Part shown: one piece after another, positions 7,690-62,196 of the stretch
Numbering within the stretch: position 1 is the first letter of the stretch
How the letters are laid out: each line of letters begins with the position of its first letter
DNA from: Typhlomys cinereus
Taxonomy: Eukaryota; Chordata; Mammalia; Rodentia; Platacanthomyidae
Reading direction: 5' to 3'
Assembly (NCBI GenBank): GCA_023101885.1
Contig: JALPQD010000089.1
Span: forward strand, 2,403,087 to 2,467,086
Length of the DNA stretch: 64,000 nt
Program-made: the position numbers and the translations under genes
The notes under the pieces: model-generated
What the model saw: the letters and a program-made list of their open reading frames with translations, nothing else
What the model was told of the DNA's origin: nothing
The model's database searches: none

Positions 7690-8028
7690 TAAACTTGTAT
7701 AAAAAAACACTTGTGTGTTTTCCACTTCTCAACATAATGTTCTTAAAACTGTTCATACTTATTCCTTTATCACTCATTCCTTTATCCTTAAGTACTGTTT
7801 TCATATATGAATACAGTAGTATTTGCTTCTCATTTTCCTAATCATGTAACTTTCACTTATTTACCATTTTATTTTGTGAATAAGTTGTAATTAATTTTAT
7901 GTACTTATCTCTATGCTGAAAATGTATCTAAATTTGTTCGAAGTAAACAGAAATAAAATTTCTGTACCGTTACATAGACATGTGTTTGACTAAGGAAATA
8001 TTGATCTTTAGATTGAGAACCTGACAAA
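7690..8028 (-). mobile_element. Ancient L1 ORF2/3' fragment, left half
   Basis: Degenerate similarity to the antisense of the L1 ORF2 C-terminal region (an 'acataatgttcttaaaactgt'-like start, then 'tattcctttatcactcattc'). It appears to resume at 9712 after the young L1 insertion. Confidence 0.45.
8016..8028. repeat. Target-site duplication, left copy
   Basis: 'agaacctgacaaa' matches 9699-9711 exactly and brackets an L1 plus ID unit. Confidence 0.82.
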
Positions 8029-8550
8029 GGGAAATGCAAATCAAAACTTCCCTGAGATATCATCTAACCCCAGTCAGGATGGCAAAAATCCACAATACAA
8101 ACAACAATAAATGCTGGAGAGGATGTGGAGAGAGGGGAACTCTCCTGTATTGCTGGTGGGAATGCAGGCTCATACAGCTACTCTGGCGAGCCGTCTGGCG
8201 ATCCTTAAAGAAGTTAAAGATTGAAATGCCATATGACCCTGCTATTCCACTTTTGGGAATAACCCCCCATACAGCAGAGGTTCACCTTGATATCACAAGC
8301 ACGACCATGTTCATAGCAGCACTGTTTATAATAGCAAAGTCATGGAATCAACCCAAATGTCCAACAGTTGACGAGTGGATAAAGAAAAATGTGGTATATT
8401 TATACAATGGAATACTACTCAGCCATCAAAAATGGTGAATTAATGAAATTTGCCGGGAAATGGATGGAATTAGAAACGATTATATTGAGTGAAGTATCCC
8501 AGACACAGAAAATTAAGCACCGTATGTACTCCCTAATAGGTGGATCCTAG
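8029..8550 (+). pseudogene. L1 ORF2 C-terminal fragment, frameshifted
   Basis: Codes for the conserved ORF2p tail: [20 protein letters not shown], then LLYCWW and [12 protein letters not shown], then the CPTVDEW segment. A frameshift near 8390, after VDEWIKK, moves the rest (the [26 protein letters not shown] and SLIGGS segments) into another frame. That frame closes at the tag around 8549-8551. The endonuclease and reverse-transcriptase domains are absent through 5' truncation, so it cannot act. Confidence 0.88.
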
Positions 8551-9590
8551 TACCAAACCCACTTAGAGACACTCAAAGATAAATCTCTGTAATAATTGCA
8601 AAGATTATAAACAGGAGGGATGGGGAAGGAGGGCCCCACCAGAAACAAGGAGAGAGGGAATCATGTTATAGCAGAGAAAAGAGGCACCATCAAGGACTGC
8701 AAGTAAGCAATGAGACATCTGGTTAAGTTCACGGACTTTCCTTCCTGATCATTTGCAACTGAGGGGATATGATCTCACTAGAAGGGGAGGGCATATAGTG
8801 TGGCAGAGAGAAAGTAACCATTTTGCAGTGGGAGACTGACCCCCCAACCTCACCATGGTCTCCTACTTTTATTCCATCTACCTTTGAATATACTTTTATA
8901 ATAAGACTCTAATTTAACAGCTTTTTATCTCTGGTCAGGGGGTGACATCCAATACCCATCAGGATGGAACCAAGGGTATTGCAGGAGAAGCAAAACTAAA
9001 AAAAAAAAAAAAAATCAACAAACCATAATTCAGAATGTCAGAGACTTTATATCAAGCACCTGGAACTGGGCCAGCCTAATCTCTCCCCATCCTGAAGCTC
9101 AGGGAAATTTGCAGAAAAGGGGGGCGGTAAGATTGGAAGAGCCTAAAGATGGGGAGGAGCAACAATATGCAAGATACTCCATACAAGTTAGGGTCTAAGC
9201 AATTATAATAGGACTTTTCATGACCTGCGTAATGACCAACACGTTATTTACCCCTCAAAGTCTAGCATGGACTAAAGGCACTAAGATCCTTAGAAGCTAA
9301 GGATTAACAGCCACAATAGTGTTCCTATACTTAAGGGGAACACAAGAAAGAGTTCTAGGAAATGCCACTGAGTTCTTACACTTCATCAGGAGGAGGACCC
9401 AGAGGAAAGTTTGACATACACATTAAAGGATGCTTCAGGGATGGGGGAGAGGAGGCACTGGGAGATAGGGAGGGAGGGGGGAAAGGAAGGAGAAAAGGGA
9501 GGAAGGAACAAGGGAGTCCAGGAAGGGGTGGAGGGAGGAGGGGATGGGGTACCTATTAAGTTCATATGAGTGGAAAAAAAATAAAAAGAC
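8029..9590 (+). mobile_element. Young 5'-truncated L1 (ORF2 C-terminus, 3' UTR, poly(A))
   Basis: Starts inside ORF2 and runs through the ORF2 stop (near 8550), a ~1-kb 3' UTR with an internal A-run (8998-9014), the 'atgccactgagttctta' motif at 9362, a G-rich polypurine tract (9435-9545) and an A-rich end. The 13-bp TSDs at 8016 and 9699 enclose this element together with the ID sequence at 9591-9698. It lies in the same orientation as DLG2. Confidence 0.92.
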
Positions 9591-15373: not shown

Positions 15374-15663
15374 GTTTTTTTTAATTTTTTTATTTATTCA
15401 ATTGTGTGTGTGTGTGTGTCTGTGTGTGTGTGTGTGTCTGTGTGTGTGTGTAGAACTACAGGCGAATTCGGGAACCACCATGGACCGCCTCCACCTCCTC
15501 CTTGTTTACTCTGCCCCAGGATTCACAGGCTCCGCCCTACCAGGACCAGAAATGCAGGCCGCCCCCGCTTCCGCCTGGCGTCTATACGTGGGGTCTAGGA
15601 TCTCAACTCAGGACCTTCTGCCTGCAAGGCAGAGGCTTAACCCCTGAGCCACCTCTCCAGCCC
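15374..15663 (-). mobile_element. Young B2-superfamily SINE with CA tract
   Basis: The complement starts at 15663 with 'ggctggagaggtggctcagg' (tRNA-like head). A pol III B-box-like 'gagttgagatcc' and a GC-rich body follow, then a (CA)n run (15403-15451 as GT), then 'caattgaataaataa' and an A/T tail. An 11-bp TSD with one mismatch flanks it ('ctataatgcat' 15363-15373, 'ctataatacat' 15664-15674). An AATAAA motif in the tail is typical of the T+ class of SINEs. Confidence 0.92.
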
Positions 15664-15789
15664 CTATAATACATCTTCTTTCTTTTCTTTTCAGATAGTT
15701 AACTAGTCAGTAAGATTCAGGGATCTGTCTGTCTCCCTGTTACAGAATTATAAACACTCACTACTGCACCTAACATTTTTTTTTCCATT

Positions 15790-22580: not shown

Positions 22581-22891
22581 CTGGGGCTGGAGAGGTGGCT
22601 CAGGGGTTAAGCCTTGGCCTTGCAGGTGGAAGGTCCTGAGTTTGGATCCTAGACCCACGTATAGACTCCGGGCGGAAGCGGGAGCGGCCTGCGTTTCTGG
22701 TCCTGGTAGGGCGGAGCCTGTGAATCCTGGGGCAGAGTAAACAAGGAAGAGGTGGAGGCATCCATGGTGGTTCCCAAATTGGTCCGTGGTTCTACACACA
22801 CACACACATACGTACACACACATACATGCACACACACGCATACACACACAATTGAATAAATAATAAATAATAATTTTTAAAAATTAAAAAA
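22581..22891 (+). mobile_element. Young B2-superfamily SINE, full length
   Basis: Head 'ggggctggagaggtggctca', B-box-like 'gagtttggatcct', the body shared with 15374, a (CA)n run with interruptions (22794-22850), 'caattgaataaataa', then a T-run and A tail. Flanked by a 15-bp TSD with two mismatches ('agaatgtccatttgg' 22566-22580, 'agaatttccattcgg' 22892-22906). Confidence 0.93.
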
Positions 22892-22906: not shown

Positions 22907-23995
22907 GGTATACCCAAAGACAAGATAAATAGATTATGTTATTTTCTCATTGAATCTTATACTTATTCTCATATGAGATACTATGTATTTGGTGATAATT
23001 ATGAGTTATTCTTTACCCTTTCCTCTTTCCCAAAGCTCAGCATGTTGTTGCTATGAAGTCTGCCTTACATGAAGTGTTTTATCCAGTTTCCTAATGTTTT
23101 TGTTCTATCAACATGGTTCTAGTTTCAGCCCACAATGCTAAGTTGCTATTATATTCTTAGGTGAGACCATAAGAAATTGTCATTGTATAAGTCGAAATGA
23201 TTAAAAATCAGTAATTTCTTATAATTCAAAGCTTATCTGGCATCTAAAAACTCAGTATATTGTGGTAGAAACAGTTTTACAATCATTGTTGTAAAGATCT
23301 AGACTTGTGATAATGTACTTGGGTTTACTAACTGAGAAGTTTTAAGCCAATCATTTGTAATCTCTGAAATTTTACCTCATCTAAAAAGTTGAGATAGTAG
23401 TGAAAGACTGATGTTAGAAACAAATGCTGTCATATGCAAATGTGGCATGCAAATGAGTGGTACAGTTGGTATCATTATCTAAAACATATTACATATGAAC
23501 AACTGGAGACCCTGAAGTTTCTGTATTTACCAACTACAAAACGGTAGAAATTGAACAGACAGAAACCTGTTAATAATCAGTCCTACTACCATCTTAATGT
23601 GCATTTAACAGGCTAGAACAGGCCATAAATTATTTCCCTTGCTTATGATTTGAACCAAAAATATGGCTGTAACTGCTTTTTTTTAAATAACAAGTATTTA
23701 CAAGCATTTTTTCCTAGAAAAGGAGAAATTCTCATGAATTAACAGGTAAATTAATCCCTGCAGTCTCTTTGGAAGCTTTCGAAAACAATTGAACTGTTTT
23801 CAAATAACTCTATGAGCTAGTGAAAGAAGTAGGAGTAGTCACTTGATAAAATATTTGCTGCTTGATGGTTGATCTTGAAAATTGTTGGTGACATATATTC
23901 AAATGAAAACAAGGTAGCAAGATTTGCAGGGAAATGATTACAGAGAAATTAAAGTATCAAGAGTGATAGTGGTTAGCTAGACTTTTTTTTTATTA
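22907..23995. other. Intronic DNA with faint MIR traces
   Basis: MIR-like stretch at 23320-23410 ('ccaatcatttgtaatctctgaaattttacctcatct' follows the MIR '3' half). The rest is unrecognised. Confidence 0.4.
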
Positions 23996-23999
23996 AAAA

Positions 24000-25172
24000 T
24001 TTAATTATACATTTTAAAATTTTTTTACCAGTTCCCTCCCTCTCCCCTCCTCCCCCTCCCCTTCCCCCAGTGCCTCCCCCCCAATTCCCAGAGAGTCCTT
24101 TATTGTGTACGCCTAACTCTCCTCTGGGTCCTCCTCTCCGATGACATATAAGGACCCAGTGGCATTTCCATAACCCCTTTCTCTTGTTCCCCTTAAGCAT
24201 AAGATCACTACTATGGCTGTCAATCCCTTGCCTCCAGGTGTCTCGGTGCCCTTAACAGATGCTAGACTTTATGAGGGCAACAGTGCGCTGGACATTGCGC
24301 AGGGCATGCAAAGTCCCATTATGATTGCTTTGGCCCCAACTATTATTGAGAATCTTGCAAATCGTTGCTCCTCCCATCCTTTTGCTCTTACAATCTTACC
24401 GCCCCCTCTTCCGCAAATGTCCCTGAGCTCCAGGATGGGGAGAGATTAGGCTGGCCTAGTTCTATGTGATTGATATAGAGTCTCTGAAGTTCTGGATTGT
24501 GATTTGTTGATTTTCTTTTGCAGTTTTGCTGCTCCTGCAATTCCCTTCACTCCATTCTGCTGGGCACTGTATGTCACCCCCTGGCCAGAGACAAAAAGCT
24601 GTTAAACTGGAGTCTTGTTGTAATAGCACATTCAAGGGTAGATGTAATAAGAGTAGGAAACCTCACTGAGGGAGGGGTCCATCACCCATTTGCAAAATGA
24701 TTACTTTTTATCTGCTAGACTATATGCCCTCCCCTTCTGGTGAGATCAGGAAAGAACGTCTGTGAACTTAACCAGGTTTCTCATTACTTACTTGCAGACC
24801 TTGATGGAGGCCTATTTTCTCTGCTGTAACATGGTCTCCTCTCTCCTTGTTTCTGGTGTGGCCCTCCTAACCCATCTCTCTTGTTCATAATCCTTGCAAT
24901 TACTGTGTTACATAGGTTTACTTTTGAGTGTCTCAATGTGGGCTGGGTGAGTTTGGTACTAGGAGCCACCTATTAGGGAGTACATATGGCGCTTAATTTT
25001 CTGGGTTTGGGATACTTCACTTAATATAATTCTTTCTAATGACATCCATTTCCCAGCAAATTCCAGTAATTCATCATTTTTGATGCCTGAGTAGTACTCC
25101 ATTGTATAGATGTACCACAGTTTCCTTATCCACTCGTCAACTGTTGGACATTTAGGTTGATTCCATGACTTG
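24000..25172 (-). mobile_element. Young L1, ORF2 C-terminus to poly(A), antisense
   Basis: Reversed order of the L1 at 8029: T-run, pyrimidine tract (24030-24085), 'ggtggcatttcc'-type motif at 24160, 'ccgccccctcttccgcaaat' at 24400, then the ORF2 end. Similarity stops at 'ccatgactt' (about 25172), where the sequence departs from ORF2. No convincing TSD. Confidence 0.88.
24959..25172 (-). pseudogene. L1 ORF2 C-terminal fragment
   Basis: The complement reads [20 protein letters not shown], then EYYSGIKNDELLEF and SQTQKIKRHMYSLIGGS and a stop. This frame is intact, unlike the copy at 8390, and shows the normal end of this L1's ORF2. Catalytic domains are absent. Confidence 0.88.
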
Positions 25173-37628: not shown

Positions 37629-37667
37629 GCACTAATACTTTGCTTCCTTTTTCCTCACTATTTACAG
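37629..37667 (+). other. DLG2: 3' splice site of the DLG2 exon
   Basis: A pyrimidine-rich stretch (37639-37663, 'cttcctttttcctcac' at its core) ends in 'tttacag' at 37661-37667. A possible branch point 'cactaat' sits at 37630-37636, about 30 bases upstream of the AG. This is a strong U2-type acceptor and fixes the exon start at 37668. Confidence 0.85.
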
Positions 37668-37718
37668 GTCAATGGAACAGAAATTGAATATGAATTTGAA
37701 GAAATTACATTGGAGAGG
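37668..37718 (+). CDS. DLG2: DLG2 (PSD-93) internal coding exon, 17 codons, start of PDZ1
   Basis: Seen: reading from 37668 gives VNGTEIEYEFEEITLER, 17 codons with no partial codon at either end, preceded by 'tttacag' and followed by 'gtaaga'. Known: this matches, residue for residue as I remember it, the stretch of DLG2 just before the GLGF loop of PDZ1; the DLG1, DLG3 and DLG4 paralogues differ here (DLG3 has VNGSDGMFKYEEIVLER). DLG2 is a membrane-associated guanylate kinase (three PDZ domains, SH3, guanylate-kinase-like) that anchors NMDA receptors and potassium channels at postsynaptic sites. This exon supplies the linker and first beta strand of PDZ1; the carboxylate-binding loop lies in the next exon, which is not in the window. 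Skipping it would keep the frame but remove the first PDZ1 strand. Inference: the gene runs on the + strand and the window is intronic on both sides. A retrocopy is excluded by intact splice sites and non-coding flanks. Confidence 0.93.
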
Positions 37719-37724
37719 GTAAGA
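37719..37724 (+). other. DLG2: 5' splice site of the DLG2 exon
   Basis: 'agg|gtaaga' agrees closely with the U1 consensus and fixes the exon end at 37718. Readthrough would continue as VRRIYNF and stop about 32 codons later. Confidence 0.88.
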
Positions 37725-38516
37725 AGAATTTATAATTTTAAATCCTTAATTTTGCATTCTATCTCTTTTAGGTCTTTTGTTGGTTGCTTTGTGAAATTAC
37801 ATGATTGCTTTTTATAACTTGTAAATTTCCCACAAGGTTTCCGGTGAGAATGTTATTGAAATGTTTGCCATAGAGAACATTGAGAAATAAGACCTGATAA
37901 CCAGAATGTTCAGAGTATCAATTGCATTTCCAGAAATTGGAGAAATGAATAAAAAACAGATAATTATCCAAGAGATTGCATAGTCCTTTATTCAACATAT
38001 TTATATTTTCCTAATACATATTATAAGATGATTTCTATCATCCAGACTATAGGTACCATTCATCTTTAATCCAAGTAGCAAAAAGAGTGATAAATTTAAT
38101 GCCACATCCACAGGGAAAAATAAAGGCACCCAACAGTGCTTTGAAAATATACACAAGGATCCCTGAAAATGTTTCTGATAAACTGTGTCATTCTAGTGTA
38201 ATATATTTAGATAACTTAAAAATAGCAAGAGAAAAAAGGCAAAGGCCATCTAGGAAAAAAAATGATCAAAATTAATTTGGAAAATATTCATCATTAACCA
38301 GGCAAACATGAAAACCAACTTACACTTATTAGGAAATAATGAAGGGTAATCAAGGTAACATTTTTGTCTCTAATTAGGAAATATTTTAAGGAAATGTTAG
38401 TATTTGGTGCTAATGAGTGGGCCTGGAAGTTAGTGTAATTCAGAAATATGGATCAAAAGCCATAAAATGTGCATGCTTTTAGATCCACAAAGTATATTAG
38501 TAAAAGCAGACAAATA

Positions 38517-39893: not shown

Positions 39894-40116
39894 GGACTGG
39901 GGAGATGACTCAGTGGTTGAAGTCTTTGCCTCCTAAATAAAAGGACCTGAGTTCTGATCCCCAGACTGGGTGGATATCGTAGTGGCCTATAGTTCTAGTC
40001 CTGGAAAATGAAGCCTGGGAAACTCAGAGTAAAGCAGTAAGGAGCTGGAACAATCCAGGATGATTCCTTATTTCACCTTTGGGCCTCTACAGGCACACAC
40101 ACACAAGTGCCCTCTT

Positions 40117-40181
<65 letters not shown>

Positions 40182-40469: not shown

Positions 40470-40630
40470 GTGAGTTCGGATCCTAGACCCCATGTATAGA
40501 CGCCAGGCGGAAGCGGGGGTGGCCTGCGTTTCTGGTCCTGGTAGGGCGGAGCCTGTGAATCCTGGGGCAGAGTAAACAAGGAGGAGATGGAGGCGGTCCA
40601 TGGTGGTTCCCAAATTCACCCGTGTTTCTA

Positions 40631-40680
<50 letters not shown>

Positions 40681-40721
40681 AACGCACACAGTTGAATAAA
40701 TAATAAAAAATTTTAAAAAAA
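40470..40721 (+). mobile_element. Young B2-superfamily SINE, 5'-truncated
   Basis: Starts in the B box ('gagttcggatcctagacc'); the body is nearly identical to 22581 and 59099. It ends with (CA)n (40629-40677), 'gttgaataaataataa' and an A tail. The tRNA-like head is missing. No certain TSD. Confidence 0.88.
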
Positions 40722-40754
40722 GAAAAGGGGACAGAAAAAAATCTTGCAAATCAC

Positions 40755-45971: not shown

Positions 45972-46181
45972 AGGGCTGGAGAGATGGCTCAGGGTTTAAA
46001 CTTCTGCCTCCTCAGCAGTTCAAATCCCTGATCCTATGTAACAATGCCAACTGGAGATGGTGGCGATCTGTACCTCTGGCTCTGGAAGGTGGAGCCTGGG
46101 AAACTCCAGAGCAGAGCAAAGAGGAGACAGAGCAATCCAAAGTGATACCCGATGTAACCCTTGGGGCTCTGCAAGCATACA

Positions 46182-46258
<77 letters not shown>

Positions 46259-47500: not shown

Positions 47501-47999
47501 AGTTCAATTTTTAACTTCTAGCCTTATTCCTTTTTCATGATCTCTTGCTGATCTGCCTTTGACAGATCTTTTAACACTAAAAGCATCCAAATTATCAGTC
47601 TTTTCAAGCGAAACTAAACCAAACATATCAAAATGTAGTCATTCATTCGAACTAAGCTGAAATCAGAGGCAAACATGCTCTCCTAACAAGTTACATCTTT
47701 CAACTCTACACAAGTGATTTAAACCTCCTTTTTGAAAAGCAACTTTTGAAAATCATAAATGTTAAAGGCCAGGAGATATTTTTACTTAGCAAGCTTTCAT
47801 CTTGTTCCTTCTATCTTCCAAAAAAGGCAAAACCTTGTAGAATTCACATATCTCTAAAAGACTTTATTCATGTCAACTTGAATTTTCTTCTAGTAGTTTC
47901 TAACAAAGTGCAATGTCGCAAAGACATTTTGAGGGTAGTCATTATAGTCATTTAGTGTGAAGTCAAATGATAACTAGCATCTACCAGATCTGTGAGTGT

Positions 48000-53636: not shown

Positions 53637-53960
53637 GATTTGGGAGATTGCTCAGTGGTTAAAGCCTTTGCTCCACAAGCAAATGGATATCAGTTCAGAT
53701 CTCCATCTCCCATATAAAAAGTACCAGGCAGTTATGGTAGTGGCCTGTAATTCTGGTCCTGGAAAGTAGAGCCTAGGAAACCCCAGAACAAAGCTATATA
53801 TAGATAGGATATAGAACAATCCAGGATGATTCCTGATGTCACCGTTGACCTCCACAGGCACACACACTCAAGTACATTCTTTTACACACCCACACACAGA
53901 TGTCTACCTACCCACATACAAAACACACACGCATAAATGTAGAACAAAAAAATGAAAGAA
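53637..53960 (+). mobile_element. B2-superfamily SINE (older subfamily)
   Basis: Head 'gggagattgctcagtggtta' directly after the B1 poly(A). Then 'tggtagtggcctgtaattc', 'acaatccaggatgattcc' and a CA-rich tail. It appears to have used the B1 A-run as a landing site. Confidence 0.78.
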
Positions 53961-59098: not shown

Positions 59099-59295
59099 GG
59101 GGGCTGGAGAGGTGGTTCAGGGGTTGCAGGCGGAAGGTCCTGAGTTCGGATCCCAGACCCCATGTATAGACACCGGATGGAAGCGGGGCAGCCTGCGTTT
59201 CTGGTCCTGTTAGGGCGGAGCCTATGAATCCTGGGGTAGAGTACACAAGGAGGAGGTGGAAGCAGTCCATGGTGGTTCCCGAATTCACTCGTAAT

Positions 59296-59332
<37 letters not shown>

Positions 59333-59371
59333 GCACACACACACAATTGAATAAATAAAAATTAAAAAAAT
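59099..59371 (+). mobile_element. Young B2-superfamily SINE
   Basis: 'gggggctggagaggtggttcagg' begins it; about 15 bases after the A box are missing compared with 22581. Then 'gagttcggatcccagacc', the shared body, (CA)n (59301-59344), 'caattgaataaataaa' and an A tail. Short TSD 'aaacacgt' at 59091-59098 and 59372-59379. Open frames of 93 and 166 codons on the minus strand are SINE artefacts. Confidence 0.9.
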
Positions 59372-62002: not shown

Positions 62003-62196
62003 ATGTCCGTGCCTATGGAAGCCCAAGGGTGACTTCGGGAATCATCCTGGATTATTCTACCTCCTTTTTGTTTTACTTTGGGTTTCCCAGGCTTTGTCTT
62101 CCAGAGCTGAAATACAGGCCAGCACTATTTCAACTGGACATTTTCTTCATGGGATCTGGAATCCAAACTCTCTAACTCACAAGGCAATCTTTTCTC
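62003..62196 (-). mobile_element. B2-superfamily SINE (older subfamily), head missing
   Basis: 'gtgacttcgggaatcatcc', 'ggattattctacctcctttt' and 'gggatctggaatccaaactc' match the element at 247-512, which is in the same orientation. Confidence 0.78.

Follow-up and report, generated by a model that had tools for sequence, protein, structure and literature searches.

A 17-codon internal exon of DLG2 in a 64-kb stretch of the Typhlomys cinereus genome

The stretch of DNA analyzed here (64,000 nucleotides from the rodent Typhlomys cinereus, called the window below) carries a short coding segment of DLG2, the gene for PSD-93. We put the probability at about 0.96 that positions 37668-37718 are a standard internal exon of this gene, transcribed from the + strand and spliced in phase 0 between the exons that end in DTIPY and begin with GNSGLGF. 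The segment is 51 nt long (17 x 3), runs from GTC to AGG, translates as VNGTEIEYEFEEITLER, and is in phase 0 at both ends. Its borders read ACAG/GTC upstream and AGG/GTAAGA downstream, with the AG at 37666-37667 and the GT at 37719-37720. Sequence and translation thus reproduce the coordinates, length, strand, reading frame, and divisibility by three given in the preliminary description, which had been made from the letters alone. That description also named the gene correctly, but this is an ordinary coding exon with deep conservation that is already known, and its identification is nothing new. The features of the exon and its surroundings are as follows.

1-37667, + strand: part of the upstream DLG2 intron (presumed; at least 37.7 kb), with the DTIPY exon not found by tblastn with 120 or 240 relatives and with the upstream peptide
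37632-37636, + strand: branch-point-like CTAAT with its A at 37635, 33 nt 5' of the exon (motif scan; putative, a consensus match only)
37641-37667, + strand: 3' splice site, a pyrimidine-rich tract ending in TTTACAG (sequence and acceptor score)
37668-37718, + strand: internal coding exon of DLG2 (PSD-93), 17 codons (translation, relatives, and tblastn)
37716-37724, + strand: 5' splice site AGG/GTAAGA (sequence and donor score)
37719-64000, + strand: part of the downstream DLG2 intron (presumed; at least 26.3 kb), with the GNSGLGF exon not found by tblastn with 120 or 240 relatives and with the peptide

Relatives were collected with the human DLG2 protein as the query, and the best 120 of 7999 scored were used; as the query contains the exon, this set is no test of skipping. 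All 120 are mammalian by name, with 117 named DLG2 and three listed as hypothetical or unnamed products. The 17 residues are unchanged in 120/120 of these best of 7999 relatives and lie between NTDTLDTIPY and GNSGLGF in them. In the comparison with DLG2 (PSD-93, chapsyn-110) at this place, all 17 residues agree, the ends of the match coincide with the AG and GT, and no difference was found. When the 120 relatives were searched against the window using tblastn, the exon scored 37.7 bits (E 8.5e-5); the second-ranked place had an E value of 0.81 (24.6 bits). When the set was enlarged to 240 proteins, the second-ranked place reached an E value of 0.17 (26.6 bits). Fifty dinucleotide-shuffled windows searched with one DLG2 protein gave a top score of 28.1 bits, against 37.7 bits for the real window.

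The paralogues share the VNGT...EEITLER pattern, which speaks in favor of an exon from DLG1, DLG3, DLG4, or another MAGUK gene. Against PDB chains, the 17-residue segment matches DLG4 (PSD-95) at 14/17 and DLG1 (SAP97) at 13/17, each in the same place before PDZ1. DLG4 differs at positions 6, 8, and 10 and has LQ directly before VNGT, while DLG1 differs at positions 5, 6, 7, and 10. The DLG3 segment presumably matches at 9/17 and differs at eight; a PDB search with a 35-residue DLG3 peptide found the DLG3 chain 2i1n over residues 13-35. The identity of 17/17 in every one of the best 120 of 7999 relatives argues against a paralogue, as does the peptide-to-window match, which was 59.6 bits for DLG2 but 46.0 for DLG1, 39.7 for DLG4, and 24.0 for the presumed DLG3 peptide. 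We consider a paralogous origin next to negligible, and the earlier assignment of these residues to DLG2 and not to its paralogues holds. The segment could also be a dead or duplicated copy of the DLG2 exon, such as a pseudogene or part of a segmental duplication, in keeping with the failure to detect the remainder of DLG2 within the 64-kb window. However, its 17 codons are without change, its splice sites are strong, and it lacks the adjoining exons that a processed copy would carry. Since the AG and GT sit flush with the matched residues, an intact exon is likelier than a processed pseudogene, and we regard a copy of either kind as very improbable.

Splice sites were scored with frequency matrices and ranked against all AG or GT sites on the + strand of the window. 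The acceptor of the DLG2 exon scores 12.2 bits, which places it 11th among the 4123 AG sites of that strand; its donor, at 9.04 bits, is 19th among the 3125 GT sites. Each is therefore in the top 1%, in line with the preliminary claim that both sites are strong. Site pairs 20-300 nt apart with a joint score at least that of the exon pair number four on the + strand, including the exon's own, and one on the - strand; two of the four + strand pairs use the same acceptor. Splice strength alone is therefore insufficient to single out the exon, and it is the protein match that does so. A donor-like site at 37844-37845 scores higher than the exon's own donor (9.95 against 9.04 bits), possibly by chance; if used, it would lengthen the exon by 125 nt and run into an in-frame stop. 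No RBFOX motif (TGCATG or GCATG) was found within 250 nt on either side of the exon.

We detected no further DLG2 exons in the 64 kb, either using tblastn with the 240 relatives or with the neighboring-exon peptides alone under PAM30; among DLG2 first exons, this search covers those present in the 240 relatives. As no second DLG2 exon was detected, the introns within the window would exceed 37 kb and 26 kb. Several weak matches from these searches were taken as background. The upstream-exon peptide matched 6/18 residues at 15654-15671, inside the edge of a SINE (E 0.029). At 23112-23177, an insertion from a ruff protein aligned with gaps and through a stop codon (E 0.015). The background also includes short matches to a parrot insertion (E 0.15) and, weaker still, to the downstream exon (E 1.5). 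DLG2 and recursive splicing are both mentioned in PMC5518101. A scan of the long introns for recursive splice sites found the motif twice, counting both strands, where 2.6 occurrences were expected, and therefore no signal. A recursive-splice-like TCTTAGGTGAG lies in the upstream intron at 23155-23165 (+), where the pattern is no commoner than chance.

The exon had been described earlier as the only coding signal in the 64 kb. This holds for host genes as far as they were tested, but the window also contains a LINE-1-like open reading frame at 8025-8438 (+). Of the 7998 candidates scored for this 137-codon frame, 7992 had E <= 0.001, and the best identities were about 73% among the 120 matches listed. 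Six of those 120 are named: one as a LINE-1 ORF2 protein, two as reverse transcriptase zinc-binding proteins, one as a DUF1725 protein, and two as hypothetical proteins. Pfam found no family in the frame. The DNA at 8337-9490 aligns with 24035-25171 at 80% identity. We also ran Pfam on nine of the 89 stop-to-stop open reading frames; eight had no family at E 0.01, and one had a sub-threshold match at 47656-47952. A CT-rich repeat of about 360 bases (1720-2081) produces long spurious open reading frames on both strands. The interspersed repeats are as follows.

8025-9587, + strand, and 24035-25171, - strand: LINE-1-like 3' ends, the first including the open ORF2-like piece at 8025-8438
15384-15664 (-), 22583-22867 (+), 40471-40727 (+), and 59100-59370 (+): young SINE family of about 290 bp with a tRNA-like head and an AC repeat tail, copies 82-89% alike
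About 248-510, 2698-2944, 39898-40165, 45973-46217, 53639-53898, and 62009-62134: older related SINE family

ARAGORN called a tRNA-Ala in the SINE head at 15587-15657. We take the head of the young family to resemble rodent B2, with the caveat that B2 and ID consensus heads match the window copies only at 70-81%. An Alu consensus has a sole match of one 127-base stretch at 65% identity, which speaks against a primate genome, and a MIR consensus was matched in the window. Rfam gave no family at the gathering score. Tandem repeats account for 47 rows in the window.

In the human DLG2 protein (P0001, 975 aa), the exon encodes residues 192-208. Pfam places the end of the MAGUK_N_PEST stretch at 202 and the start of the best PDZ stretch at 203, and the matched part of P0001 in the DLG2 PDZ1 chains 4h11 and 2wl7 starts at 198, inside the exon. 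By these limits, the exon straddles the border between the linker and PDZ1. The earlier view that it carries the first strand of PDZ1 is right in that it overlaps the start of the domain by both Pfam and PDB, but the exon is not that strand alone, as it also includes the end of the N-terminal linker. We take the ITLER stretch to be the first beta strand, as in known PDZ domains. The 17 residues would complete the N-terminal linker, and PDZ1 would begin with the last of them, ITLER among these. AlphaFold models of a protein with the exon (P0345) and one without it (P0241) had very low mean pLDDT (32.6 and 39.5, respectively), so low that they carry no information on the damage to the PDZ fold that the preliminary description predicts for skipping. 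Both were built on one shared set of 23 further alignment rows, among them P0242, another protein that lacks the exon.

Isoforms with PDZ1 most likely include the exon almost constitutively. For skipping, we searched with P0001 minus the 17 residues, scored the junction region, admitted candidates of 0.55-1.75 times the query length, and kept the best 120 of 7998. Among these best 120 of 7998, 96 have the exon where it normally lies, 19 are bird proteins with extra residues before the exon, and five are without it. In favor of near-constitutive use, 115/120 of them have the exon even though the query did not; against fully constitutive use stand the five without it, namely a rat protein, P0241 ("isoform CRA_d," 835 aa), and P0242-P0245, all models from the fish Mastacembelus armatus. 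In each, DTIPY (DSVPY in the fish) is joined directly to GNSGLGF, and they hold ranks 1-5 in the junction search. This is as expected if sequences that span the junction score best, and near-identical mammalian records of skipping are therefore apparently few among the protein records (best 120 of 7998). Skipping is on record among proteins through these five entries, but with weak support.

The bird models show a separate feature. In DLG2 of gulls, ruff, and parrots (19 of the best 120, within P0246-P0274), 18-20 extra residues ending in Q lie just before VNGTEIEYEFEEITLER, and those of gulls and parrots are alike.

The exon had also been called a micro-exon. This applies under the limit of 51 nt set by Li et al. 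2015 (PMC4317164), but not under the stricter limit of at most 27 nt quoted from PMC8378409. According to PMC4317164, about 81% of micro-exons are constitutive, and the constitutive ones have stronger splice sites and shorter introns. The long introns flanking the DLG2 exon are unlike those of typical constitutive micro-exons so described, which argues against the near-constitutive reading. The exon resembles the brain micro-exons of that paper in being exactly 51 nt, a multiple of three, and bounded by strong splice sites, in a gene described as brain-active in PMC5518101. It differs from them in lying at the upper size limit, in having no RBFOX motif within 250 nt, and in its flanking introns of more than 37 kb and more than 26 kb. 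The literature passages retrieved for DLG2 and microexon do not concern the 51-nt exon, and two other passages mention DLG2 among spliced or expressed genes and give no detail on exons.

A regulated cassette exon, skipped in frame in some cells or species to give PSD-93 without the start of PDZ1, would fit the direct joining of the flanking residues in the rat record and the four Mastacembelus armatus models. The exon's 51 nt in phase are also consistent with this, given that skipping is more frequent for short exons according to PMC4317164. However, the exon is present in 115 of the 120 records although the query lacked it, and both of its splice sites are strong. All four fish records belong to a single species, whose gene models may have missed the exon, and "CRA" in the name of the rat isoform is a mark of computed annotation. 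Excerpts of PMC6389146 on mouse Dlg2 describe alternative first exons, an exon 6 used alternatively after the gamma first exon, and linker exons 20-23; the alternative exons listed in that gene map are other ones, with the limit that its numbering could not be matched with certainty to the 51-nt exon. Taking these points together, we think regulated skipping unlikely. A broader form of the idea, a rare in-frame cassette in use from fish to mammals, is harder still to credit. In that case, skipping would cut away the last part of the PEST-like linker together with the beginning of PDZ1 and could yield a PSD-93 whose PDZ1 no longer works and whose half-life is altered, leaving PDZ2, PDZ3, SH3, and GK intact.

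By itself, the standard DLG2 exon brings no new biology. DLG2 deletions have been linked to developmental disorders, as stated in PMC5518101. A single 17-codon exon proved recognizable from sequence alone, and through it 64 kb of DNA that would otherwise be anonymous can be assigned to the synaptic scaffold gene DLG2.
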